Shown here: positions 7,699 to 22,973 of the stretch, one piece after another
Layout of the letters: every line of letters starts with the position of its first letter
Numbering within the stretch: the first letter of the stretch is position 1
Source: Rhodospirillaceae bacterium
GTDB taxonomy: Bacteria; Pseudomonadota; Alphaproteobacteria; Rhodospirillales; Rhodospirillaceae
Assembly (NCBI GenBank): GCA_019752235.1
Contig: JAIEMI010000156.1
Coordinates: 1 to 37,024, forward strand
Direction: 5' to 3'
Length of the DNA stretch: 37,024 nucleotides
Notes under the pieces: model-generated
Told to the model about the DNA's origin: nothing
Databases searched by the model: none
Seen by the model: the letters and a program-made list of their open reading frames with translations, nothing else
Program-made: the position numbers and the translations under genes

Positions 7699-9564
7699 TT
7701 AAGCCGAGATCAGTATATTGCGCGCCGCCAGATCTTCCGGCGATGGGCGTGTCGCCAGCCAAGCGGGGATATTCAGCTTCGGCAACTCCGGCGGCTCCAC
7801 GGAGATCAGGTGTTCGAAGGACTCCACCACCGGAAACGTCATCCGGTCGGTCCCATAGTAGTAGTCAAAGAACTTCTCGATCTGCTCACCCATCATCGGT
7901 TTATGCATCACCGCCGGCACGCCCAGCGCTTCGGCTAGAATAATGCCGTGCAGCGAGCTGGCCACGATCAGGTTGGCCGACAGCAGCGCCGCGCAGAAAT
8001 CCAACAGGCTCGCGTCCACGTCAATAATTGGCACGCCCAGTGCGCCATAGGCGGCGCGGAACGCCGCGCGATCATGGTGGTGCGGGACAAAGGCCAAGCT
8101 GTGACTTCCGATCTTGCCTGACGCCTCAGCCTGCGCACGCACCGCTGCCAGTTCCTCCCCGAAGATATCGCCGATCAGAAGGCCCGGGTCGAAGAAATGC
8201 GTCACCTTGCTAACGTCGACGCCGTATTTCTTCAGATATTCCAGCGTCAACGGGCCGCGCGTGGCGCGCACGTCAATGGTCGCGGCATCAGCCGCCGTAA
8301 TGGCGGGCGGCTGATTGCGAAACCCCGTGCCCCACAGCGTATCGCCCGCGAGCATGCGGTGCGAGATCGAGCCGACGCCCAGCAGGCGCGCGCCGCGCGT
8401 GTCGTCATGAATCGGAGCGGCTTTATAAATTCGGGAAATTAGGTGTTCTTCCAATTGGTCCCCGACGTTGCCGTAGCGGAACGGATTCTTCAGCGCTTTG
8501 CGCGCATTCCAGAAAAAGGTCCGCATCATGCCGCGCGTTTGCGTGTCCGTCGTATCCTGACCTGCTGTCAGCGCCGGCGTGACGTGGCGGCGCTCGATAC
8601 TCTTGATGGGCGTCAGTCGCGGGAACAGCGCATCCTGGGCGTAACAGCGCACACCGGACGCGAAATCATTGATGCCGTAGGACATCACCAGGCCCTGGGC
8701 GCTCTCGTCCCAGAAGAAGCCGCCGGGATAGATGCACGATCTCAGGAATTTGTTAAGTGTCTGGGCCGGTTGGATTTTCAACTCGTCGGGCGTCAAGGGC
8801 ATCAGCGGTTGGTACGAGAACGCCTTTGGCCGGAACGGCGCGGTGCTCTCGAAGCTCAGGATCGAGGCGTAGTAGACACGATCATGATCCTTGGGAAAGC
8901 GGCTCTGCACAATGAAGTGAAAGTCCTCTCCGATCTTGATGGGCGACGGCCCGCCGTGCAGGTCTCCGTAACGATCTTCATAATCGCGCGAGGCCCAGTG
9001 GTTTTCATAGACCGTCCGGCACAGCACTCTGTCGCCATGAAATTCACACGCGAGAACGGTAAATGGCTGGATCGAATAGACGCAATACAGGTGGCCTTCG
9101 GATTCAAAAAAGCCCCAATTCTTCTCGATGGGCTGACGCCCGTCTTCCTTGGCCAGCGTATAAACCTTTACCGGCAGGCCCGCCCAATCGACTTCGGCGA
9201 GGTAGATATCATTTGGCAACGGGTTCTGGCCGTTGTTGAAGGTGATGTAGTCCTTGCCCCGAAAGGTGAAATGCCGTGGATCGGCAAACCACGTCACCTG
9301 GGGCAGAAACTTGCGCAAAGTGCCCGAGAAGCTAGCGGCGGTTTTACCGACGAAGTTCAAATCGCGGTCCAGCGGCAAGCAAAATAGCTCGCGCCGCCCA
9401 TCGCCGACATAGCGCGCCAGGAATTGTGTGGTGCCCGATTGGGTCCGATAGATGGCAGGATTGAAGAAGTATTCCGCCGCGCCGCGCGGCAAACCGTCGA
9501 TCTTCAGATCGTCGAAGTTATAGACTTTGCGGAAGTAAAATGCAGGAACGTCGGAAGCCGGCAT
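7699..9564 (-). CDS. Two-domain protein: N-terminal glycosidase-type beta-propeller-like region plus C-terminal polysaccharide pyruvyltransferase-like domain
   Basis: 621 aa; N-terminal ADPRHFTFRGKDYITFNNG and repeated strand-like segments resemble five-bladed propeller glycan enzymes; C-terminal FRYGNVGDQLEEHLI, GVGSISHRML, GTGF, VRATRGPLTLEYL, ASSLHGIILAEALGVPAV match the PS_pyruv_trans family. Confidence 0.78.
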   Translation of the reverse strand: MPASDVPAFYFRKVYNFDDLKIDGLPRGAAEYFFNPAIYRTQSGTTQFLARYVGDGRRELFCLPLDRDLNFVGKTAASFSGTLRKFLPQVTWFADPRHFTFRGKDYITFNNGQNPLPNDIYLAEVDWAGLPVKVYTLAKEDGRQPIEKNWGFFESEGHLYCVYSIQPFTVLACEFHGDRVLCRTVYENHWASRDYEDRYGDLHGGPSPIKIGEDFHFIVQSRFPKDHDRVYYASILSFESTAPFRPKAFSYQPLMPLTPDELKIQPAQTLNKFLRSCIYPGGFFWDESAQGLVMSYGINDFASGVRCYAQDALFPRLTPIKSIERRHVTPALTAGQDTTDTQTRGMMRTFFWNARKALKNPFRYGNVGDQLEEHLISRIYKAAPIHDDTRGARLLGVGSISHRMLAGDTLWGTGFRNQPPAITAADAATIDVRATRGPLTLEYLKKYGVDVSKVTHFFDPGLLIGDIFGEELAAVRAQAEASGKIGSHSLAFVPHHHDRAAFRAAYGALGVPIIDVDASLLDFCAALLSANLIVASSLHGIILAEALGVPAVMHKPMMGEQIEKFFDYYYGTDRMTFPVVESFEHLISVEPPELPKLNIPAWLATRPSPEDLAARNILISA

Positions 9565-9567
9565 GCA

Positions 9568-10275
9568 TCAGGCCCCGTCGTCGCCTTCAATGACGTGCAT
9601 GTTGGCCAGCACCGCGTTGGGAACGATGTATTTATTAATGCCAAGCCGCGCGCAAAAGTCATGTTTAGCCTGAATTTTGGTTTTGCCCGTGAAGTGCACG
9701 AGAAAATGTTCTTCCGGACGGGCGACGAACTCGAAGTCGCGGTTATTGAAGTGGTTATGGTCTATGATCTTAATGAAATTCTCCCGGAACAGCGGGTGGG
9801 CTTCGGTCAAATACACGAAGGCGTCCTGATCGCCATTGGAAAAGAAGCCCAGATCTTCCCGCCAAAACTGGTTCTTAACATATTCCAGATCGACTTTCTT
9901 CGCGGCGCGTAAAAATTCTTTCGCTTCCGGCCCGTTGCGCAGGAAGAACTGGCCCGAAGAAAATTTGGTGAAGATTTTTTTGGTCGAAGGGCTGGCGCAG
10001 ATCAGCATCTGCTCGCCGTTCAAGAGGTCGAGGAAGCTATGCAGCGGCTTGCTGAAGTCGGTGAAGTAGGCGTCATCGTCGATCCAATACAGCCAGTCGA
10101 ATAGATCGAGATATTGGTCAATAACTTCAATCTTGCGAAAGAAACGCCGCGTGTCCTGGCCCGGCTGACTGGCATCGATATAATAGTATCCGTGGGTCCG
10201 GCAGTAAGCCGCATGGTTGACGTGCGAATTGAACCGTCGGCCCGGGTAGAAACCTGAAACAACGCCGATCTTCAT
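9568..10275 (-). CDS. Putative glycosyltransferase (GMA12/MNN10, GT34-like)
   Basis: 235 aa; DWLYWIDDDAYFTDF DXD-like motif, NGDQDAFVYLTE, HFTGKTK; 4-nt overlap with the upstream GSCFA gene. Confidence 0.62.
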   Translation of the reverse strand: MKIGVVSGFYPGRRFNSHVNHAAYCRTHGYYYIDASQPGQDTRRFFRKIEVIDQYLDLFDWLYWIDDDAYFTDFSKPLHSFLDLLNGEQMLICASPSTKKIFTKFSSGQFFLRNGPEAKEFLRAAKKVDLEYVKNQFWREDLGFFSNGDQDAFVYLTEAHPLFRENFIKIIDHNHFNNRDFEFVARPEEHFLVHFTGKTKIQAKHDFCARLGINKYIVPNAVLANMHVIEGDDGA

Positions 10276-11366
10276 GGTCGCTTCGCATTCTGTTCGCGTT
10301 CGGCGCGCAACGAATCCACGGTCTTGTCCAATCCGAACTGGAGAAACAGCGACGCGCTATCGAAGCAATTCTGCCAACGCGTCTCGACGAACAAGTTGCG
10401 CAGCTCCTCGGCCGTGATGCTGGGCGGGTCGATATAGAAGTGGTCGAACAGCAACATCATGAAATCGATGATGTTTGTGTGGATATGCCGATTATCGAAT
10501 TTATAGGGGTGCGGGAAAAGCTCGGTGATGATTTCGTAGGACGGAAAATAGTGCAAGCGCTTGTCCGTGCTGCGGTCCTGCAAAAGCTGATCCAGGGCCG
10601 ACTTCAGGTTGGCCTTCGACGTATGATTGGCGGTCAGGCACGACATGGGCCGGAACGTCGCCGCCAGCTTGATCGGCGATAGCGTGAACAGGATATCCGC
10701 ATCCGGCACGCGCTTACGAATGATATCCACAATCTTGTTAAGGTTCGCCAGGTTCTCGGCCTGGGTCGCGACCTTGAATTTATGGCGTGCGGGGTCGTAG
10801 TGCTTCATCGGGATGGCACGCCAGAACACGCCGCCCGTCGGTTCGTCGTACCAGACTTCCGATAGACCCAGAGTCAAAATGAAGACTTTACTCTGTTTAA
10901 AGACCGCGCCGGTGCGGCGGCGGATATCTTCCGAGTATCCGAACTCCTCGGCCTTATATCCGTGCCACAGATTTTGCGTCGGCACGTGTCCGTCGAGCGC
11001 CCACTCGAACTGGGAGGCGATGGCGTAGGTGTTCACCATGCCTTCGCCCATCAACGAGATATAGATCTCGGAATCCACCGAGCTGTGCATCTTGAAGGAT
11101 TTCTCGGTCAGGTACTTCGTGACGTTTTGCGCGAAGCAGCTTCCGATGGACGTGATGGTCTTGCTGGCGTTGATGAACTTTTTATCCGGCAGCAAACCGT
11201 TCATGACGTAGGTCTCGAAGAAACCTTCAGCCACGTATTCCTTCTGATAGGGCATAAAGTTCGCGCCATCGCCCCGGAAAAACGTCGTTCCGATCGTGCG
11301 CTTAACACCCTTGCCGACGCTTTCGACGATTTCTTGCTTCCAGGACTCGTGGTCTAGGATTTTCAT
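10272..11366 (-). CDS. GSCFA-domain protein (SGNH-like)
   Basis: 364 aa; SIGSCFAQNVTKYL signature, LTLGLSEVWYD, TLSPIKLAATF, YFPSYEI. Confidence 0.85.
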   Translation of the reverse strand: MKILDHESWKQEIVESVGKGVKRTIGTTFFRGDGANFMPYQKEYVAEGFFETYVMNGLLPDKKFINASKTITSIGSCFAQNVTKYLTEKSFKMHSSVDSEIYISLMGEGMVNTYAIASQFEWALDGHVPTQNLWHGYKAEEFGYSEDIRRRTGAVFKQSKVFILTLGLSEVWYDEPTGGVFWRAIPMKHYDPARHKFKVATQAENLANLNKIVDIIRKRVPDADILFTLSPIKLAATFRPMSCLTANHTSKANLKSALDQLLQDRSTDKRLHYFPSYEIITELFPHPYKFDNRHIHTNIIDFMMLLFDHFYIDPPSITAEELRNLFVETRWQNCFDSASLFLQFGLDKTVDSLRAEREQNAKRP

Positions 11367-12983: not shown

Positions 12984-14507
12984 ATGCAGTCTTCACCCAG
13001 CGGCGTCGCCATCGGCCTGTTCTTCGGCGTCATCGCGATCACTCTCGCTATTACATATTGGGCTGCGCGCCGCAGCAACTCGGCTGCACAGCTATATGCC
13101 GCCGGCGGCTCCATCACGGCCGGACAAAACGGCCTCGCCATCGCCGGCGATCTGCTGTCCGCCGCCCTGTTCCTGGGCGGTATCGGCATGTATTTCACGT
13201 CGGGCTACGACGCAATCCTGTACTTTTTCCCGGCCATGGCCGGCTTCGCCCTGATGCTGGGCTTCATCGCCGGGCCACTGCGCCGTCTCGGCAAATACAC
13301 CTTCGCCGACGTGGCCTGCGCCCGCCTCAATCCAGTACCGATCCGCATTCTCGCGGCCTTCAGCTCCCTCGCCGTCACTCTGATGTACATGATTATTCAG
13401 ATGGTGGGCGCGGGCGGCCTGATCCAGATTCTGTTCGGGATTCCCTACACCTATGCCGTCATTATCGTCGGCAGCCTGATGGTGATCTATGTCGCCTTCG
13501 GCGGCATGCTGGCCACCACATGGGTGCAGATTATCAAAGCCATCCTCATGCTGAGCGGTTTGGCCGTCATGAGCATACTGGCGCTCGCCCATGTCGGCTG
13601 GAACTTGGATGAACTGTATTCCCGCGCGGCCTCGGTGCATAAGCTGGGCGAAGGTCTGTTCCAGCCTGGCGGCCTGAATCTCTCGGTCGCGCAGGCCGCC
13701 TCGCTAAGCTTGGCCATCGCGCTTGGCATCCCGGGCATGCCGCACATCCTGATGCGCTTCTTCACCGTTCCCAATCCCAACACCGCCCGCAAGTCGCTGG
13801 TGATCGGCATGGTCTTCATCGGCCTGGCCTATACGATGGTGTTCCTGGTCCTGGGCGCGGCGGGCACAGCCTTCATCACCGGCAACCCCGACTTTGTGGA
13901 CGCCGCCGGCAAGCCACACGGCGGCACCAACATGGTCGCTCTGCACCTCGCCTCCTTCCTCGGCGGCAACGTGCTGTTCGGCGCCGTGGCGGCCGTAGCC
14001 TTCGCCACCATTCTCGCAGTGGTATCGGGCCTCACCGTGGCGGCGGCATCGGCCCTCTCGCACGACATCTACGTTGGCGTCCTCGCTAAAGGCAAAAAGA
14101 TCAATGAAAAGACCGAAACCACGGTCTTCCGCGTCTCGTGCCTCGTCATCGGCGGCCTCAGTATTCTGCTGGGCATCGCTTTCGAAGGGCAGAACATCAT
14201 CTACCTCACCGGCATGCTGTACTCGATTGCCGCCAGCGCCTGCTTCCCGGTACTCGTGATGTCGATGTACTGGCGTCGTCTCACCACGCAAGGCGCGTTG
14301 GCGGGCGGATATGCAGGCCTGGTGTCGTCGCTGATCCTCATCACGATCGGCCCCAGCGTCTGGGTCGCTGTCTTGAAGAACGCGACGCCAATCCTGCCGA
14401 TCGAACAACCGGCCATCATCTCCGTACCGGTGGCCTTCATCACCATGATCCTGGTCTCGCTGATGACCCAGGAAGCACAGCGTCCGGCGACCGCGGCGGC
14501 GGAATAG
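12984..14507 (+). CDS. ActP-like sodium:solute symporter (SSS family, acetate/monocarboxylate permease type)
   Basis: 507 aa; ITYWAARRSNSAAQLYAAGGSITAGQNGLAIAGDLLSAALFLG and LGKYTFADVACARL closely resemble ActP. Confidence 0.88.
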   Translation: MQSSPSGVAIGLFFGVIAITLAITYWAARRSNSAAQLYAAGGSITAGQNGLAIAGDLLSAALFLGGIGMYFTSGYDAILYFFPAMAGFALMLGFIAGPLRRLGKYTFADVACARLNPVPIRILAAFSSLAVTLMYMIIQMVGAGGLIQILFGIPYTYAVIIVGSLMVIYVAFGGMLATTWVQIIKAILMLSGLAVMSILALAHVGWNLDELYSRAASVHKLGEGLFQPGGLNLSVAQAASLSLAIALGIPGMPHILMRFFTVPNPNTARKSLVIGMVFIGLAYTMVFLVLGAAGTAFITGNPDFVDAAGKPHGGTNMVALHLASFLGGNVLFGAVAAVAFATILAVVSGLTVAAASALSHDIYVGVLAKGKKINEKTETTVFRVSCLVIGGLSILLGIAFEGQNIIYLTGMLYSIAASACFPVLVMSMYWRRLTTQGALAGGYAGLVSSLILITIGPSVWVAVLKNATPILPIEQPAIISVPVAFITMILVSLMTQEAQRPATAAAE

Positions 14508-14579: not shown

Positions 14580-15833
14580 TTACGGCGAAGCCGCGACCCA
14601 CACGAGCGCCGCGGCGCCGCGCAGCGCGCCGCCGTTGCTGCCGAAGGTTTTGAAGGTGCCTTCGTCCTGAATGAATTCGTAGCTGTCGACGCCGTTCATC
14701 TGACCGGGCTTCACGTCGCCGATGAAGGTGTACAGCGGATAGCCGCCGTAGACCCACTGCTTAGATCCGTCCTCGCGGGCGATGGTTTCCCAATAGCCGC
14801 CGGGCACGGCGTCGGCGGGGGCTTTGAACGGCACCCAGGTCTGGGTGCAGCTGCCGGTGCAGGTGGAGATGCCGAACATACGGCCGAACCCGGCCGGACT
14901 GCGCGGTGCATTGCGCAAGCTGTGGCCTGACACGCCGCCGACACCGCGGCCGCGCGTGTAGAGCGTCATGCCGGTGGCGGTGACGAGGTTGCTGCCGCCG
15001 AAATGGTTATGCCAGACAGATACGTCCGGCGGCATCGCATAGCGCACCAGCATCGCCGTGCGCCACTTGCCTTCCAGCGCGTTGCCGACGGTGTCGCCGG
15101 GCTCGCGGTCCCCTGTGTACGTATAAAGCGGGCGGCCCTTGTAAGCCCATTGCGAAACACCGTCATTGCGATTCACGACGGTGAAGTCGCCCACGGGGCG
15201 CGACAGCTGCGACGCCAAGAACGGGCGCCACTCCTGCGCGCACGCACCGCTGACGCAGGTCGGCTTGCCGGCGGCTATATCATCGTTGGTGGTGTAGAGC
15301 GGTTTGGCCTCGGCACTGATGAATACCCAGCCGTTGGCCGCCGCCAGTTCGCGCACCGACACGCCCGGCGGCATTTTTACGCCTTTGTCGGGCGCATAGG
15401 CCAGCACGTTCCAGGCGTTTTCCTCGGCTTTGTCCCCTTTGGCGTCACCGGGTTTTTCATCGGCCGCATGGGTATAAACCGGCTTGCCCTGATAGGCCCA
15501 TTGCCTGGTGCCGTCGGCGCGGCTGACGATGCTCCACGCGCCGAAGGCCTTGGCGTCGGCGGGCGCGGCGAGCGGTGGCCAGGTTTTGGCGCACGCGTCC
15601 ACGCAGGCCGACTTACCGCCGACGTCCTTTTCGCTGGTGTAAAGGCTTTTGCCCTTCATATCGCCCAGGATCATAGTCGCCGGAGCCATCATGCCCTTGC
15701 CGGGCTTTTCCTGGAACGTCACGCCGGGCGGCGTAGCCAGCGGCACGTCATCGAGCGGCAGAAGCGCCGCGGTCTGCGCAAAAGCCGCGCCCGAAGCGAG
15801 CAGCGCGACGCTCAATGCCAAGGCGCGCATCAC
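14580..15833 (-). CDS. Secreted protein with three PF03640 (COG4315, Lipoprotein_15) repeats
   Basis: 417 aa; signal peptide MMRALALSVALLASGAAFAQ; three repeats of SLYT...C..(A/S)CA..W.PF/PL..P......W....R.DG..QWAY.G.PLYT..GD..PG. Confidence 0.85.
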   Translation of the reverse strand: MMRALALSVALLASGAAFAQTAALLPLDDVPLATPPGVTFQEKPGKGMMAPATMILGDMKGKSLYTSEKDVGGKSACVDACAKTWPPLAAPADAKAFGAWSIVSRADGTRQWAYQGKPVYTHAADEKPGDAKGDKAEENAWNVLAYAPDKGVKMPPGVSVRELAAANGWVFISAEAKPLYTTNDDIAAGKPTCVSGACAQEWRPFLASQLSRPVGDFTVVNRNDGVSQWAYKGRPLYTYTGDREPGDTVGNALEGKWRTAMLVRYAMPPDVSVWHNHFGGSNLVTATGMTLYTRGRGVGGVSGHSLRNAPRSPAGFGRMFGISTCTGSCTQTWVPFKAPADAVPGGYWETIAREDGSKQWVYGGYPLYTFIGDVKPGQMNGVDSYEFIQDEGTFKTFGSNGGALRGAAALVWVAASP

Positions 15834-17173
15834 GCCATGACCTCGGTGATGGTGCGTGAGGTCTCATTGGACTCCGTGCCCCAGCTGCTGACGGGAACGC
15901 CCATGGCCTGCTGGGCGGTCAGGCCGACGCGGGTGACGGGCTGGCCCTTGGCGGCGACGTGGATGCCGGTCTTCATACGCCCGCCGCCCGAACCCGCCGT
16001 AAACAGCGGCATGTTTTCAAGGCCGTGCAGCTTGGCGTAGCCGTGATCGGTGGAGGCGAAGATGATGGAACGGTCCAACAACGTGCTGTCGCCTTCCTTG
16101 ATGCCGTCCATGGCGGTCAGGAATTCATTGAATCCTTCCATGATCTCGGTGTTGAACACAGCGAGTTCGGGCTGATAGCCCAGCTTCACGTCGATGGGCT
16201 CTTCATGGGTGTGCTCATGGTGCGACTGCGTACCGCCCTTGTGACGCAGCGACGAGGTAGCGTCAGCAAAGGCGACGTTGACGACACGGGTCTGATCGCA
16301 CGCAACGGCATGGGCCAGCAGGGTGGAGAACAGGCGATTGTTCTCGCGCACCATGGCAATTTCGTTGCCGACGGCACTATCGGCCACGGCACCGGGCACG
16401 GAACAAGATTCAATCGGCGCTGGCTTTTCGAGCTGCAAGGCCAATTGCTGTTCTAACTCGCGCACCGAGGTAAAGTATTCGTCGAGACGCTGGCGGTCGG
16501 CGGCGCCAATTTTCTTCATGAGATCTTGGCGCTTTTCAGAGACCACCGACAAGGCGCTCTTGCGCACCATCACCGCCGGGTCCGGCTTGAACACGGCGGC
16601 ATTCGGATCGGTAAACTCCGGTCCGAAGATCCTGGTGTAGAGCTTCGCAGGCGAGACTTCCGCCGGATTCATGGCTGTGGCGCTGCGGCGACTTTGACTG
16701 TGGGACGGGATGCCCGCGCAGGCGACTTCGATGGAGCGGAAGCGCGAGCGCGTGCCGATGACGTCAGCCACCAGGGAGTCGATGGAGGCCTTGCTGGGCA
16801 TCATGCCGTTGGGCACGGTGCCGGTGGTGCAGGCCATGACGCCCGAGAAGTGCACGCCCACGGCCTTGCCGTCGAGGAAGGTCTTAAGACCACTATAGAC
16901 GTTGAGTTTATTCTTGAAGCCGGCGACGGGCGCCATTTCCGGCTTGATGTCATAGTCGGCGCCAACCTTGTCCGGCTCCCACCGGCCGGGGTTGAGGCCA
17001 CAGCCCCAGAACCACGTACCGAAGCGCACCGGTAGAGCCTGACCGGTGGCGGCGAAGGCCGTGCCGTTGGTGTTCAAAAAACAGTCGAGGATCGGCAGAC
17101 CGACCGAGATGGCGGCGCCACCCATCATGCCGCGCAGCACGCTTCGCCGGTGCATGGGTCGCATATAGATCAT
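15830..17173 (-). CDS. DUF1552-family protein with Tat-type signal
   Basis: Trimmed to MIYMRPMHRRSVLRGMMGGAAISVGLPILDCFLN (start at 17173 preceded by AGGAGAACC); twin-arginine RRSVLRG; TWFWGCGLNPGRWEP and ASTDHGYAKLHGLENMPLFTAGSGGG typical of DUF1552. Confidence 0.85.
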   Translation of the reverse strand: MIYMRPMHRRSVLRGMMGGAAISVGLPILDCFLNTNGTAFAATGQALPVRFGTWFWGCGLNPGRWEPDKVGADYDIKPEMAPVAGFKNKLNVYSGLKTFLDGKAVGVHFSGVMACTTGTVPNGMMPSKASIDSLVADVIGTRSRFRSIEVACAGIPSHSQSRRSATAMNPAEVSPAKLYTRIFGPEFTDPNAAVFKPDPAVMVRKSALSVVSEKRQDLMKKIGAADRQRLDEYFTSVRELEQQLALQLEKPAPIESCSVPGAVADSAVGNEIAMVRENNRLFSTLLAHAVACDQTRVVNVAFADATSSLRHKGGTQSHHEHTHEEPIDVKLGYQPELAVFNTEIMEGFNEFLTAMDGIKEGDSTLLDRSIIFASTDHGYAKLHGLENMPLFTAGSGGGRMKTGIHVAAKGQPVTRVGLTAQQAMGVPVSSWGTESNETSRTITEVMA

Positions 17174-17183
17174 GGCGGTTCTC

Positions 17184-18896
17184 CTATTCGCGCGCCGCGA
17201 CGCTGGTCGCGGGCTGGGCGCTGGCTTCGGTTTTGGATTTGAGTTTGTCGTCAACAGGCTTATCGGCACTCGGCTTGGCGACACGGTAGAACTGATCGCT
17301 CAACGCGATATGGCGCATCAGGTCGGGCACACGGTATCCCTCGGCCGCGAAGGACTTCTGCAACTCCGCCACCATTTCCCGTTCGCTGCGTTCGACGGCA
17401 CGGCCGACGCCGTAGGAATACATGCGCGTGACCAGGCATGAGGGCGCGGCGGGATGGTTGCTCACCACGCGGCCCAGGTCGGCGGCGTCGGCGAACTTTT
17501 GACCGTCCAGCTCGCCGGTGGTGTCGATGGACGCGCCGTGTTCGGAGGTGCGGTAGCCGCCGCTGGAATCGAAGTGCTCCAGCGCCAGGCCGATGGGATC
17601 CATGATCTTGTGGCAACCGGCGCACATGGCTTCGGAGGCATGCGCCTTCAAACGCTCACGCGCGGTTTTGAATTTCGGGTTCTCGGCATCCTCAATCAGG
17701 GTGAAATCGACGTTGCCCGGCGGATCTGGAACTTTCTGGCACAGCAGCAATTCCCGCAGCGCCTTGCCGCGCAGCGTCGGCGAACTGCGGCCCGGGTGAG
17801 AGTGCAACGCCGTGAAGCTGATGTGGGCGAGAATACCGGTGCGCGGATCACCCTTGGGGAATTCAAAGGGCTGCCAGCCGCCGTCCGGATCCACCGGCAC
17901 GCTATAGATCGAGGCCAGCATCGGCGAAATAAAGGTCTTCGGGGTTGTGAACAAGGCGCGGTAGTCGGCGCGCTGCGTTACCAGATGATCGGCGATGGTG
18001 CGCAGTGTCTGTTCCTCGGCTTCGGCCGCGACCTTGAAATTGAACTTCGGGAAGATCACGACATCTTTGGCGAGGCCTTCGAATTTGTCGTAGCCCAGCA
18101 TGTCCGTGAAGTAGGCGCGCACGCCGCCCTCGAGACGCGGCGACGCCACCATGCGGTCCACTTGGCGCTGCAAGCCTTCGGGCTTATTAAGCTCACCCTT
18201 TTCGGCGGCAGCCAGCAGTTCCGGATCAGGCGCGGCATTCCACAGGAAGAAACTGAGGCGCGCCGCACGCGAATAAGAATCTAGGCGATAGGCGCCCTTA
18301 TTGGCGGGGTCAGCTTCAGCGAATTCCTGGCGGAACAGGAATTCCGGCGAGATCAGCATGGTCCACAGACTGGTGCCAAGGCCGGCGTAGAAATCCTTAT
18401 TGGTGGCGGCGGATTCGCCGGCAACGTCGATCTGGGCTTTCAACTCCTCGCGCGACAGCGGACGGCGGTAGAGCAGCTTGCCCACCTCACCTAGGAATTC
18501 CTTCGCGCAGGCGGCGTCGGCTTTCTTGGCGTCTTTCGGCGTGCAGGGGATTAACGCCGAACGCTGCGGTTCGGTGGTGACTTGCGCGGCGATAGACCGG
18601 GCCATTTTGTCGTATTCGCCCAGGCCGGTCGTGGTGACGGTGACCAGGCCGGAGCCCACCGCCAACAAACCATCCTTGCGCAGGCCCGGCTCAAAACGCC
18701 CGCCGATCTCGATGGTGGGGCCGAACACGTCGGCTATGATCTGGCGGTATTGCGTACCGTTGAGCCGCACCGCGACCGGTTCTCGCGTGGCGGGCGCCGG
18801 CGAGGAGGCTGCGTAATCCGCGGCGACAGCCGTGAGAGACACCGCGGCGACGCCAACAGCAAGAGCGGCCAGACGAAGGCCTGTACGTGTGATCAT
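17184..18896 (-). CDS. DUF1592/DUF1588/DUF1585-type secreted protein with CxxCH motif
   Basis: Trimmed to MITRTGLRLAALAVGVAAVSLTAVAA; RLSFFLWNAAPDPELLAAAEKGEL, HPGRSSPTLRGKALRELLLCQKVPDPPGNVDF, AMCAGCHKIMDPIGLALEHFDSSGGYR are hallmarks of this multidomain family. Confidence 0.88.
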   Translation of the reverse strand: MITRTGLRLAALAVGVAAVSLTAVAADYAASSPAPATREPVAVRLNGTQYRQIIADVFGPTIEIGGRFEPGLRKDGLLAVGSGLVTVTTTGLGEYDKMARSIAAQVTTEPQRSALIPCTPKDAKKADAACAKEFLGEVGKLLYRRPLSREELKAQIDVAGESAATNKDFYAGLGTSLWTMLISPEFLFRQEFAEADPANKGAYRLDSYSRAARLSFFLWNAAPDPELLAAAEKGELNKPEGLQRQVDRMVASPRLEGGVRAYFTDMLGYDKFEGLAKDVVIFPKFNFKVAAEAEEQTLRTIADHLVTQRADYRALFTTPKTFISPMLASIYSVPVDPDGGWQPFEFPKGDPRTGILAHISFTALHSHPGRSSPTLRGKALRELLLCQKVPDPPGNVDFTLIEDAENPKFKTARERLKAHASEAMCAGCHKIMDPIGLALEHFDSSGGYRTSEHGASIDTTGELDGQKFADAADLGRVVSNHPAAPSCLVTRMYSYGVGRAVERSEREMVAELQKSFAAEGYRVPDLMRHIALSDQFYRVAKPSADKPVDDKLKSKTEASAQPATSVAARE

Positions 18897-18907
18897 TACC
18901 AAATACT

Positions 18908-20035
18908 CTAGCGTGCTTGAGCTGAGGGCGTGGCTTGCACGCTCTGATTCTCGCCGACGGTGAAGGCCCGCACCGCTTCGATGTGCCACGTGGTGGAGAT
19001 GGCGCGGTTCTGGCCCGTGGCCGGATCGGGATCGGCATCGGCCAATTTCTTCAGCGCGTAGTAGACGCCCGGCGCATCGACCGAGGCGGCGTACTCCGCG
19101 ATGTGAGCAACGCGCGCGATGCCGTAATAAATCGTGTACCAGGGCTGATAGCCGCCGATGTAGCCCTCAAGCGAGCCGTCGGGCTTCACTTCCAGGCGCA
19201 TCTTGGCTTTGTCGAAGTCCATTTCGTGGATGATGTACTCATCAAACTTCATGGTGAACTTCGACGCTTCAGTGGTGATCATTCCTTCCTTCAGCTTGCC
19301 CTTGAATTCGTTGTGGGTGCGCGGATCAGGATCGAGGCGGTAGCTCATGTCGGGCTGTACATTGCCGCTGGCGGCGCGGGTAATGGGCTGCAGCGCGCGA
19401 TTAAAGTGCACAATCACCGGGCCGTCCTGCTGAAAACCGTTCTCGGCCGTGACCGTGACAATCCAGGCGTTCATGACGTTGCGCAGGACGTCCCAATGAA
19501 TCTCGGGCTGCGACGGATGTCCCGGCGGCGGGAGACCGCGGTAGGAACGGATACAACCCATGGCGCGGTAGAGTTGGTTATCGACGCCCTCCTCACCGGT
19601 GATGGGATCGACGAAATCGTTCTTATCCTTGCGGCCGTCGAGATTGAAGCCGAGGCCGTGTTTGCCCTTCACGGTTTTCAGCATCGGGTCCGGCGCGGTT
19701 TCGGGAAATTGGTAAACGTTGTCCTTACCGTTGCCGCGCGTCATGACCATCGGCACCCAGGGCTGCGTCAAACCGCCCTCGCCCGGGAAATCCTTTAAGG
19801 CTTCCTCGATTTTCTCTTTCGGGATGCCTATCCGCAGCAAATCACGGCGATAGAAATCGATCGCCGAGGGATTAAGGCCGTCGGGACATTCGGACTTCGC
19901 GCCCTCGCCCGCATAATAGTTGGCGTCGGTGAACCAATTGACGACGAAGCTGCGGCTTTCGGCGGCCTGCGCGGGATTAAATGCAAGCGCGGCAGATGCC
20001 AGCGCCATCACTGAAAGACACGATTTTACAGACAT
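18908..20035 (-). CDS. Conserved secreted protein of unknown function, first gene of the DUF1592/DUF1552 operon
   Basis: 375 aa with N-terminal signal sequence (MSVKSCLSVMALASAALAFNPAQAAES); 11 nt upstream of the DUF1592 start; no family recognised. Confidence 0.8.
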   Translation of the reverse strand: MSVKSCLSVMALASAALAFNPAQAAESRSFVVNWFTDANYYAGEGAKSECPDGLNPSAIDFYRRDLLRIGIPKEKIEEALKDFPGEGGLTQPWVPMVMTRGNGKDNVYQFPETAPDPMLKTVKGKHGLGFNLDGRKDKNDFVDPITGEEGVDNQLYRAMGCIRSYRGLPPPGHPSQPEIHWDVLRNVMNAWIVTVTAENGFQQDGPVIVHFNRALQPITRAASGNVQPDMSYRLDPDPRTHNEFKGKLKEGMITTEASKFTMKFDEYIIHEMDFDKAKMRLEVKPDGSLEGYIGGYQPWYTIYYGIARVAHIAEYAASVDAPGVYYALKKLADADPDPATGQNRAISTTWHIEAVRAFTVGENQSVQATPSAQAR

Positions 20036-20128
20036 TTGGCCCTCTCCAACCCAGAAGCGACAGCGCTTCGATCTCCACTAGACACAAGTCTACCTAGTTT
20101 TAAGCACACTGAAAAATAACAAAGGCCC

Positions 20129-20142
20129 TTTGTCCGGACAAA
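20129..20142. promoter_or_regulatory. Perfect 14-bp palindrome TTTGTCCGGACAAA in the divergent operon/TonB-receptor intergenic region
   Basis: Direct reading; followed at 20144-20159 by the inverted repeat CAAGTT-CACA-AACTTG. Confidence 0.5.
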
Positions 20143-20194
20143 TCAAGTTCACAAACTTGTTTTGTATATTCATATAGAAGAACAAGTTACAGAG

Positions 20195-20206
20195 CGGCGT
20201 ACGCCG
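20195..20206. promoter_or_regulatory. Perfect 12-bp palindrome CGGCGTACGCCG in the same intergenic region
   Basis: Direct reading. Confidence 0.4.
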
Positions 20207-20513
20207 ATTATGTAAGCTTTTGATGCAATTGGGTTGGCGTGTAACCGAGCGCTTGCAGGCGCCGTCAAACGCATCAGAGGAGATCGCACTGTTACATTAT
20301 CGGACCGGACGAAAGTCTCTCTTTGGAGAGGACGGCGCGACCTAACAGCTGTTCGAATCACGTATCCCGGCCCTCAACCCCTTACGCAAGTTTGACAGAC
20401 GCGCGAATGTGTAACAGCATATGCGTCATTAGGGGCGTCCATAATTACGTTTGTATTGGTTCGGGAGTTCAACGCGCCGCCATCGCGACGAGTTAGGCCT
20501 TGGGAGGGGTCAC

Positions 20514-22973
20514 ATGAAATCGCAGTTCAATTACATGTTGTTATGCAGCACGGTGCTCGCCGCCGTGTGTTTGAATCAGTCGCCGGCATCGGCACAACAG
20601 CAAGCTGCCGCGCCAGTGATGGCGGCTCAGGACAGCATCCCCGACATCGTCGTGACGGCGAGCCGCCGCGAAGAACTTAATCAAAACGTACCCATCTCGA
20701 TCACGGCGTTCTCCAGCGAACGCATGCGGCAGCTGAACATCACCAAGCCGCAGGATCTGCAAGCCACCGTTCCGTCACTGGTGGTCGGCTCGAACGGTCA
20801 GGGAACGCGCGATTCGCAAACATTCACGCTGCGCGGCCAAGGCGCCACGTTCCAAGCCTCGCCCGGCGTCGTCGTCTACATGAACGAAGTGCCGCTGCCT
20901 GCTCCGATCTCGCTCAGCCAGCAAGGTTCAGCCGGCAACTACCTCGACCTGGAAAATCTACAAGTGCTGGCCGGTCCGCAAGGCACGCTGTTTGGCCGCA
21001 ACACCACCGGCGGCGCGATCCTGCTGGTGCCGCGCAAACCGACCGATAAACTTGAAGGGTCAGTGAGCGCCAAGTTCGGCAACTACGACACCACCGAATT
21101 CGAAGGCGTCCTCAACGTCCCGGTCATCGCGGATAAGCTGCTCGTGCGCGCCGTGGGCGGTTACACCGACCGCGACGGCTATACCCGCGATATAACCTTC
21201 AAGAAAAAGCTCGACGACACGCACTGGTACTCAGGCCGCCTGGGCATCACCTTCACACCGACCGACAACTTCGAAAACTACACGATGGGCTATGGCACCC
21301 ATCAGTCGAATAACGGCACGGGCCTGATCCACAAAGGCTTCAACATTCCCGGTCTGCAAGGCGTCGGCTTCTGCGTCGATCCGCCGCTAACGCCGCCCGG
21401 ACCATCGTTCATCGCCGTGTCTTGCGATGTTTACCGTAACCAGACCACACAGGCCAACAACCTGGGACCGCGCGCCACCGCGCCCAGCGTCGATCAAGGC
21501 CAGCGCACGGAAACGTGGGGCGTATCCAACACGTCGCGCTTTCAAATTAACGAAGACCTCGCGATCCGCAACATCTTCAGCTATCAGCGGTTCAAGAGCT
21601 TCTACTACTACGACGGCGACGGCGCACCCGCGCAGCAATATGACTCTTCGCTGCGCATCAACCCGCTGCCGCGCGATCACCTGACTACCATCACCGAGGA
21701 ACTGCAGGCCCAAGGCACGGCGCTGGACAAGAGGCTGACCTATACCGTCGGCGGCTTTTTCTACGACCAGAAGCCGGCGGGCCCGTCGGGCGCCTCGTCT
21801 TTCATCTATTGCCCGGCGGCGTTCACAAACTTCTGCGGCGCCAACCAGCTCCGTAGCGACGTGCGCAACGAATCTAAAGCAATCTATGTTCAGGCCAGTC
21901 TCGACATCGGCGGCTACATTTCTTCGCTCGAAGGTCTGAAGCTGACCGGCGGCTATCGCCACACCTGGGATACGATCACAGGCAGCGCGTCGTTGTGGGC
22001 GCCGTCCACCACGACACCGGGAGCCTCGGTCTGCTCGCACGACAGCTCCGTCGTCACGGGAGATCCGGTGGCCGGCTGCCGCTTTGGGGCCACACTGAAG
22101 AGCGACGCACCCAACTGGACCGTGGGCCTGGACTACAAAGTCCGTGAAGACCTGCTGCTGTTCGGCAAAGTTGCCAAGGGTTACAAGTCCGGCGGCTTCA
22201 ACGCCTATGCGGTGTTCCCGACGACCCGTACCTTCACGCCCGAATATGTGACCTCGTATGAAGGCGGCTTCAAGTCCGACATCAAATTGGGCAACATCCC
22301 GACGCGCTTGAACGGCACGTTCTACTACCTCAACTACACGAACATCCAGAAGGCCACCGGCGACTTCAACCCGGCGACCCTGTCCAGCGGCGCCCGCATC
22401 AACCCGGCGTCGGCGCACATCTACGGCATCGAACTGGACGGCACCATCCGCCCCTTCGAATGGCTGGAACTGGGCGCTTCGTTCAGCCATACGGACTTCA
22501 AGTACACACGGTACAACATCGTCTCGAACGGAATCCTGCCGGATTGCACCGGCGCAGTTCCCACCGCGGGCACAAATTCCAACCTGCGCTGTCTGAAGGG
22601 GCAGTATGTCTCGCCCTACATCTACAGCCTGCGCGGCACGGTCACCCTGCCGGTACCGGAAGAGTACGGCGAGATGTCGGTGTTCCTGAATTATGCACAT
22701 AACGCCGCCCAGAATACCGAGGCGCTGATTTTGCCGGCTTTCCAGCCCGGCGCGGTTCTGGAGCCCTTCGGCACCCTCAACGGCTCCCTGGACTGGAACA
22801 ATGTCTACCAGACGGGCATTGATATCGGCCTGTATGCGACAAACATCACCAACAAACTGTACCGCATCAGCAATACGGACGTCTTCCAGATCGGATCTCT
22901 GCTGTCATGGGCGACAATCTACGGCGAACCCCGCATGTTCGGCGCGCGGGTGCGTTATCACTTCGGCGGCTAA
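20514..22973 (+). CDS. TonB-dependent outer membrane receptor
   Basis: Trimmed to MKSQFNYMLLCSTVLAAVCLNQSPASAQQQ; TonB-box-like PDIVVTASRREE, plug LQVLAGPQGTLFGRNTTGGAILLVPRKP, C-terminal GARVRYHFGG. Confidence 0.95.
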   Translation: MKSQFNYMLLCSTVLAAVCLNQSPASAQQQAAAPVMAAQDSIPDIVVTASRREELNQNVPISITAFSSERMRQLNITKPQDLQATVPSLVVGSNGQGTRDSQTFTLRGQGATFQASPGVVVYMNEVPLPAPISLSQQGSAGNYLDLENLQVLAGPQGTLFGRNTTGGAILLVPRKPTDKLEGSVSAKFGNYDTTEFEGVLNVPVIADKLLVRAVGGYTDRDGYTRDITFKKKLDDTHWYSGRLGITFTPTDNFENYTMGYGTHQSNNGTGLIHKGFNIPGLQGVGFCVDPPLTPPGPSFIAVSCDVYRNQTTQANNLGPRATAPSVDQGQRTETWGVSNTSRFQINEDLAIRNIFSYQRFKSFYYYDGDGAPAQQYDSSLRINPLPRDHLTTITEELQAQGTALDKRLTYTVGGFFYDQKPAGPSGASSFIYCPAAFTNFCGANQLRSDVRNESKAIYVQASLDIGGYISSLEGLKLTGGYRHTWDTITGSASLWAPSTTTPGASVCSHDSSVVTGDPVAGCRFGATLKSDAPNWTVGLDYKVREDLLLFGKVAKGYKSGGFNAYAVFPTTRTFTPEYVTSYEGGFKSDIKLGNIPTRLNGTFYYLNYTNIQKATGDFNPATLSSGARINPASAHIYGIELDGTIRPFEWLELGASFSHTDFKYTRYNIVSNGILPDCTGAVPTAGTNSNLRCLKGQYVSPYIYSLRGTVTLPVPEEYGEMSVFLNYAHNAAQNTEALILPAFQPGAVLEPFGTLNGSLDWNNVYQTGIDIGLYATNITNKLYRISNTDVFQIGSLLSWATIYGEPRMFGARVRYHFGG

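Follow-up and report, generated by a model that had tools for sequence, protein, structure and literature searches.

A 37,024-nt contig of a Rhodospirillaceae bacterium (JAIEMI010000156.1; here the window, taken at its whole length) carries on its minus strand a compact set of four genes, A, B, C and D. They encode, respectively, an exported protein of an unnamed family, an exported DUF1592-type protein predicted to be a mono-heme c-type cytochrome, a DUF1552 protein with a twin-arginine translocation (Tat) signal, and an exported protein of PF03640 repeats. That these genes form a real and conserved cassette is near certain, and a preliminary description of this DNA, which took them for one exported pathway, perhaps of redox processing, is supported in that they are a conserved, exported unit with a redox component; it saw a single operon, however, and overlooked the main feature, a repetition of about 20-fold within the same genome. 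In this 3.82-Mb draft (346 contigs, 79.5% complete) a profile of A finds 20 matches, alongside 13 DUF1552 genes, 10 PSCyt3 matches and 63 PF03640 matches, and related genomes of 3.2 to 4.0 Mb hold up to 35 A genes (G399, the metagenome-assembled genome [MAG] RHODO3), then 32, 28 and 24. We posit that the window cassette belongs to a periplasmic redox system, present in many copies, that oxidizes or otherwise converts organic substrates, a proposal to which we give an even chance; a redox role as such seems probable.

All four open reading frames are present and intact in the window. Gene A (18908..20035, minus strand) encodes 375 aa and is followed on the same strand by B (17184..18896), C (15830..17173) and D (14580..15833), with gaps of 11 nt between A and B and 10 nt between B and C and a 4-nt GTGA overlap of C with D, the compact layout that had been described before. 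The mechanically called frame of B begins at 18989, and the ATG at 18896 suits both a signal peptide and the paralogs; D could start at GTG 15833, which gives the 4-nt overlap, or at ATG 15830. Judged by eye, all four proteins bear export signals, as previously noted: Sec-like in A, B and D, and Tat-like (RRSVLRG, with its twin-arginine pair at 17144..17149, minus strand) in C. A promoter and terminator scan gave no signal above chance.

The cassette recurs as a unit. An alignment-based scan of genome contigs with A returned 120 relatives, where a single A query found nothing. A tally of loci comprises 122 gene runs containing A, 96 of them uncut by a contig end, from about 26 genomes. A-B-C-D stand in this order in 64 of the 96 uncut runs, far more than chance would give; the others include variants such as A-A-A-B-C-D, B-C-D-A and A-D, with A alone in 12. 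Across loci B and C overlap mostly by exactly 4 nt, and three Gammaproteobacteria encode A and B as a single protein; such fused reading frames lie in gammaproteobacterial MAGs at L095:8827-11769, L105:8818-11727 and L165:8860-10784. Five classical DUF1552 genes of one gammaproteobacterium, taken as a control, adjoin a weak B-like gene, and no A or D lies within the 13- to 20-kb stretches around them. Between sister genomes the ratio of nonsynonymous to synonymous substitution rates (dN/dS) is 0.04 to 0.16 for all four genes, which marks strong purifying selection on each. In a common set of 11 cassettes, mean pairwise identity is 41% for A, 56% for B, 56% for C and 42% for D, and the pairwise distances of the four proteins correlate (r 0.80 to 0.88); because distances are correlated and identity is lower in A and D, each cassette diverges as a unit whose most variable parts are A and D. 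Only 38 of 128 A genes, a partial sample of the copies, find their best match in their own genome; copies thus often match other genomes best, and many subfamilies are therefore old.

The distribution of the cassettes across Pseudomonadota is patchy. A was found in 2 of 399 genomes of a Pseudomonadota sample, the window genome included, and in 5 of 200 genomes of an order-level sample, these five falling into two genera within a single family. Most of the named relatives are Rhodospirillales/Rhodospirillaceae MAGs of lakes and bogs, with some Gammaproteobacteria. MAGs titled ‘Candidatus Marinimicrobia’ also carry cassettes (L097, L098, L100 and other CANJ... and CAMD... loci); one of them matches a genome in the window's genus, which makes it probable that these public titles are in error.

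Gene B has the domain series PSD3-PSD5-PSD4-PSCyt3-PSD2 (DUF1587/1595/1592/1588/1585), the last four above their Pfam cut-offs and PSD3 weak; the order PSD5-PSD4-PSCyt3-PSD2 is kept in 18/18 B proteins. Each of 18 full-length B proteins has exactly one CXXCH motif, from which heme c attachment is predicted; in the window it is CAGCH, residues 425-429 (17610..17624, minus strand, by arithmetic). Gene C scores 164 bits against DUF1552 (Pfam cut-off 30), a profile matched by 23/23 cassette C members, and the twin-arginine pair is present in all 23 full-length relatives. Its AlphaFold model is of moderate confidence (predicted local distance difference test, pLDDT, 76.7) and gives 15 Foldseek matches in the PDB at E<=0.001 (top 1.2e-6, probability 1.0; template modeling [TM] score only ~0.4), nearly all of them sulfatases or a sulfamidase, with alkaline phosphatases as well. 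C is thus predicted to have a sulfatase/alkaline-phosphatase fold. Sequence-profile searches found no solved relatives of families A, B, C or D.

C could then be a true hydrolase, sulfatase- or phosphatase-like, stripping groups from imported polymers or conjugates, with the B heme secondary and the cassettes serving as alternative polysaccharide- or ester-utilization loci. Besides the predicted fold, such a role would suit the enrichment of TonB-dependent receptors beside cassettes described below and the position of PSCyt genes of freshwater Verrucomicrobia, which lie close to genes for sulfatases and to genes related to carbohydrates (PMC5615132). We nevertheless consider it doubtful: the formylglycine sulfatase motif C/S-x-P-S-R is found in 0/24 C proteins, and the corresponding region carries invariant His; carbohydrate-active enzyme (CAZyme) families are missing from the recurrent immediate neighbors listed; and the heme motif is kept in every full-length B. 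With C/S-x-P-S-R missing, we rejected assignment of C as a formylglycine sulfatase (S1). The invariant His residues of C are 108, 319, 323 and 383. None of the 23 cassette C proteins has a literal H-x-x-S-H-H; they have H-x-x-(T/S)-H-E instead, with N for E in one, and the window protein has HEHTHE (16202..16219, minus strand), whereas the five classical DUF1552 genes of the control gammaproteobacterium encode HPxSHH. Because all 23 carry HXX(T/S)H-(E/N) rather than HPxSHH, cassette C represents a divergent DUF1552 subfamily.

Protein A matches nothing in Pfam or NCBIfam, and 28 family members together with the structural model gave nothing convincing in Pfam, NCBIfam, PDB sequences or PDB folds. 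The model itself is confident (pLDDT 87.3; predicted TM score, pTM, 0.84), and its best Foldseek match in the PDB has an E value of 0.03 and a TM-score of 0.18, with none at E<=0.001; neither fold nor sequence suggested a function for A. A search for a phage origin found no match. Two Cys residues, C50 and C161, are invariant. Protein D scores 181.8 bits against PF03640 in five stretches, above the Pfam cut-off, rather than the three repeats first counted; it has three CxxxC pairs and no lipobox. For PF03640 we found no solved structure in the literature beyond one poor model. Neither A nor D has an anchor, and a lipobox is present only in some B paralogs. The preliminary description had placed the system at the outer surface; these sequence features make a periplasmic location of the cassette proteins the simpler reading.

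A TonB-dependent receptor gene (20514..22973, plus strand) does lie divergent from A, as had been reported, with 478 nt between them. Such receptors are the commonest immediate neighbors of cassettes (11/107 upstream, 6/94 downstream) and account for 49 of the 864 neighbor genes, against ~0.8-1.5% of genes genome-wide (29-58 per genome); binomial values for this enrichment are a guide only, since the loci are not independent. The association is real but optional, most cassettes having no receptor nearby, and we rejected the receptor as an obligatory member since it is adjacent at a minority of loci. The proposed co-occurrence of the four genes with a receptor is therefore upheld in part: the four genes are linked across several genera and receptors are enriched above background, but the receptor is no constant partner. 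The ActP-like sodium:solute symporter (12984..14507, plus strand), a convergent neighbor once proposed as the uptake step, lies outside the conserved unit and was dismissed as a partner, as it stands beside the window's own cassette alone among 122 loci and 864 neighbor genes. This bears on a further possibility, that the cassettes build a surface or cell-envelope structure or take up metal, with the receptor as gate and the symporter as inner-membrane step. Receptor enrichment, the lipobox of some B paralogs and the unmatched fold of the secreted A are compatible with such a system, yet no ActP-like gene occurs at any other locus, the receptor is missing at most, and A and D lack an anchor, so that we regard it as decidedly improbable.

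Redox carriers stand beside some cassettes. In a paralogous cassette on contig C52 of the window genome (L060:1-8842) a cytochrome c' gene lies between C and D, with genes for a high-potential iron-sulfur protein (HiPIP) and a pyrroloquinoline quinone (PQQ) dehydrogenase downstream, and a 2Fe-2S protein and Mo-hydroxylase pair directly follows D in the nearest relatives from other genomes. These neighbors of paralogs, cytochrome b561 (below) included, point to periplasmic redox chemistry. PQQ dehydrogenase was rejected as a general partner, with 36 matches in the window genome and one each in two genomes with more than 30 A copies. The same carriers and the mono-heme B could also belong to modules for respiration or for electron transfer out of the cell, to humic substances for instance, and not to substrate-specific catabolic enzymes; bogs and lakes are the source of many hosts, and PSCyt genes have been discussed alongside electron transfer in such habitats (PMC5615132). 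We judge this unlikely: the copy number, 20 to 35 diverged versions in a genome, is unusual for a respiratory module, each B has one heme motif and a multiheme or porin-cytochrome partner was not seen, and the Sphingobium copies lie in catabolic regions. Other families recur near cassettes: an exported protein of ~700 aa (L064:1139-3244 and its cluster) at 10 loci, whose window-genome member has no Pfam match at E<=1e-4; a 650-aa exported protein without Pfam match (L135:4001-5953 and its cluster) adjoining cassettes at 5 loci; NHL beta-propeller genes at 16 loci; and Virginiamycin-B-lyase and CarboxypepD_reg families among the immediate neighbors. The window's further neighbors are ActP, GalE, a glycosyltransferase and his genes. 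Elsewhere in the window, three minus-strand genes (621, 235 and 364 aa) without NCBIfam match form a compact block at 7699-11366, which overlaps a dip in GC content to 53-55%.

Plasmids offer a lead to substrates. Of 72,556 plasmid records only 13 contain A, 12 from Sphingobium and one from Novosphingobium; 11 of the A-bearing records belong to isolates from alpha-tomatine-treated soil and one to S. herbicidovorans MH. The Tom isolates were obtained from such soil, and degradation of alpha-tomatine has been demonstrated for S. herbicidovorans MH (PMC10653915); the terms ‘DUF15’, ‘cytochrome’ and ‘TonB’ do not occur in the paper's main text. The tomato-associated Sphingobium TomTYG74 and MH share the gene series TonB receptor, regulator, A, B, C, cytochrome c', cytochrome b561, and the regions also hold saponin-type hydrolases of glycoside hydrolase (GH) families GH106, GH3 or GH78-type alongside genes for KshA-type Rieske proteins and acyl-CoA dehydrogenases. 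TomTYG74 has A as a single intact 402-aa frame (L205:17572-18780), and on the MH plasmid pMSHV it is split over two overlapping reading frames (L204:17435-18780), frameshifted or decayed. In Sphingobium TomTYG65 a solitary A (L207:14485-15735), apart from the same plasmid's B-C pair, stands beside GH39, a flavin mononucleotide (FMN) oxidoreductase and a gene like that of a 3-beta-hydroxysteroid dehydrogenase (3-beta-HSD). Saponin hydrolase and steroid genes were not seen beside the window cassette, and the Sphingobium context is an association rather than proof.

From this evidence we infer catalysis by C, a role for A, an electron path and a substrate class as follows. C, exported by Tat, would be a metalloprotein with a fold of the alkaline-phosphatase type and a site rich in His; with the mono-heme B it would form the constant core that oxidizes or otherwise converts an organic substrate. 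A would be a fast-evolving, B-bound protein that sets the substrate specificity of each cassette, and D a repeat protein serving as scaffold or accessory. Electrons would exit through the B heme to local carriers that differ between loci (cytochrome c', HiPIP or cytochrome b561) and pass on to the respiratory chain. Substrates would probably be small, hydrophobic and often plant-derived, and a neighboring TonB receptor would at times import them; in Sphingobium they would likely be steroidal saponins or sapogenins, and steroid- or terpenoid-like substrates in general are a tentative suggestion. More speculatively still, A-B-C-D could constitute a new modular class of periplasmic oxidation, in which an alkaline-phosphatase-fold metalloprotein has been turned to redox chemistry alongside a cytochrome dedicated to it and exchangeable A proteins of new fold steer substrates, plant steroids included, the 20 to 35 versions per genome acting as a catabolic repertoire.

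Several observations weigh against a substrate-converting redox cassette. The C model is moderate (pLDDT 77) and its TM-scores are low (about 0.4), and we know of no enzymatic activity for DUF1552 or PF03640. The redox neighbors vary from one locus to the next and most loci have none, PQQ dehydrogenases are no general partner because they are nearly absent from two genomes with more than 30 A copies, and ActP, GalE, the glycosyltransferase and the his genes do not suggest a substrate for the window cassette. D is missing beside the Sphingobium A-B-C, and the saponin link may reflect one or two events because the plasmids are closely related.

Whatever its chemistry, the cassette joins DUF1552, DUF1592-type cytochromes and PF03640, long without a function, with the unnamed family A in one conserved unit. 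At ~5.6 kb per cassette, many of them partial, it may fill up to ~3% of the window genome and 5% of some others, by rough arithmetic, and since it is kept in 20 to 35 diverged copies under purifying selection it must matter to its freshwater, bog and soil hosts. Culturable saponin-degrading Sphingobium strains, with the core beside cytochrome c' and cytochrome b561, offer a concrete system for testing its function.

Parts of the cassette resemble described systems. In Verrucomicrobia and Planctomycetes a PSCyt3-type gene has as its neighbor a gene that belongs to one particular unknown family, and these ‘Planctomycete-specific’ PSCyt3/PSD genes reach high copy number in some freshwater genomes with no function assigned (PMC5615132). 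That pair has the same B domain set as the window cassette, which adds a fixed A of unmatched fold and the PF03640 protein D, has a C of the HXX(T/S)HE subfamily and resides in Alpha- and Gammaproteobacteria; we found no paper naming DUF1592 and DUF1552 together. The B-C core is known, without function, from the Planctomycetes-Verrucomicrobia-Chlamydiae phyla, and the full cassette is apparently undescribed. Cbp2D of Cellvibrio japonicus combines DUF1587 with the cytochrome domains X183 and X132, of which X183 reduces lytic polysaccharide monooxygenases (LPMOs; PMC8981238). Like Cbp2D, B is secreted and has a DUF1587 domain and CXXCH, and it might by this analogy donate electrons to LPMO-like oxidative polysaccharide enzymes; we hold this very unlikely, as an AA10 LPMO is present in 0/7 host genomes searched, the window genome included, and none of 18 B proteins has a carbohydrate-binding module. 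B differs from Cbp2D further in its single heme motif, in having no FN3 or YceI-like domain and in its four-gene operon. The Sphingobium plasmid regions for catabolism of alpha-tomatine, a steroidal saponin (PMC10653915), are a further comparison: the tomato-associated isolates and S. herbicidovorans MH have A-B-C homologs within or beside regions that hold GH3, GH106, GH78-type, GH39 and steroid-type genes, and cytochrome c' and b561 occupy the place that D takes elsewhere. Finally, Sus-type polysaccharide utilization loci likewise come as many diverged paralogous TonB-associated cassettes per genome, suggesting different substrates; in the cassettes described here, by contrast, the receptor is optional, the recurrent neighbors are not CAZymes, and the core consists of a cytochrome and a protein with a predicted alkaline-phosphatase fold.

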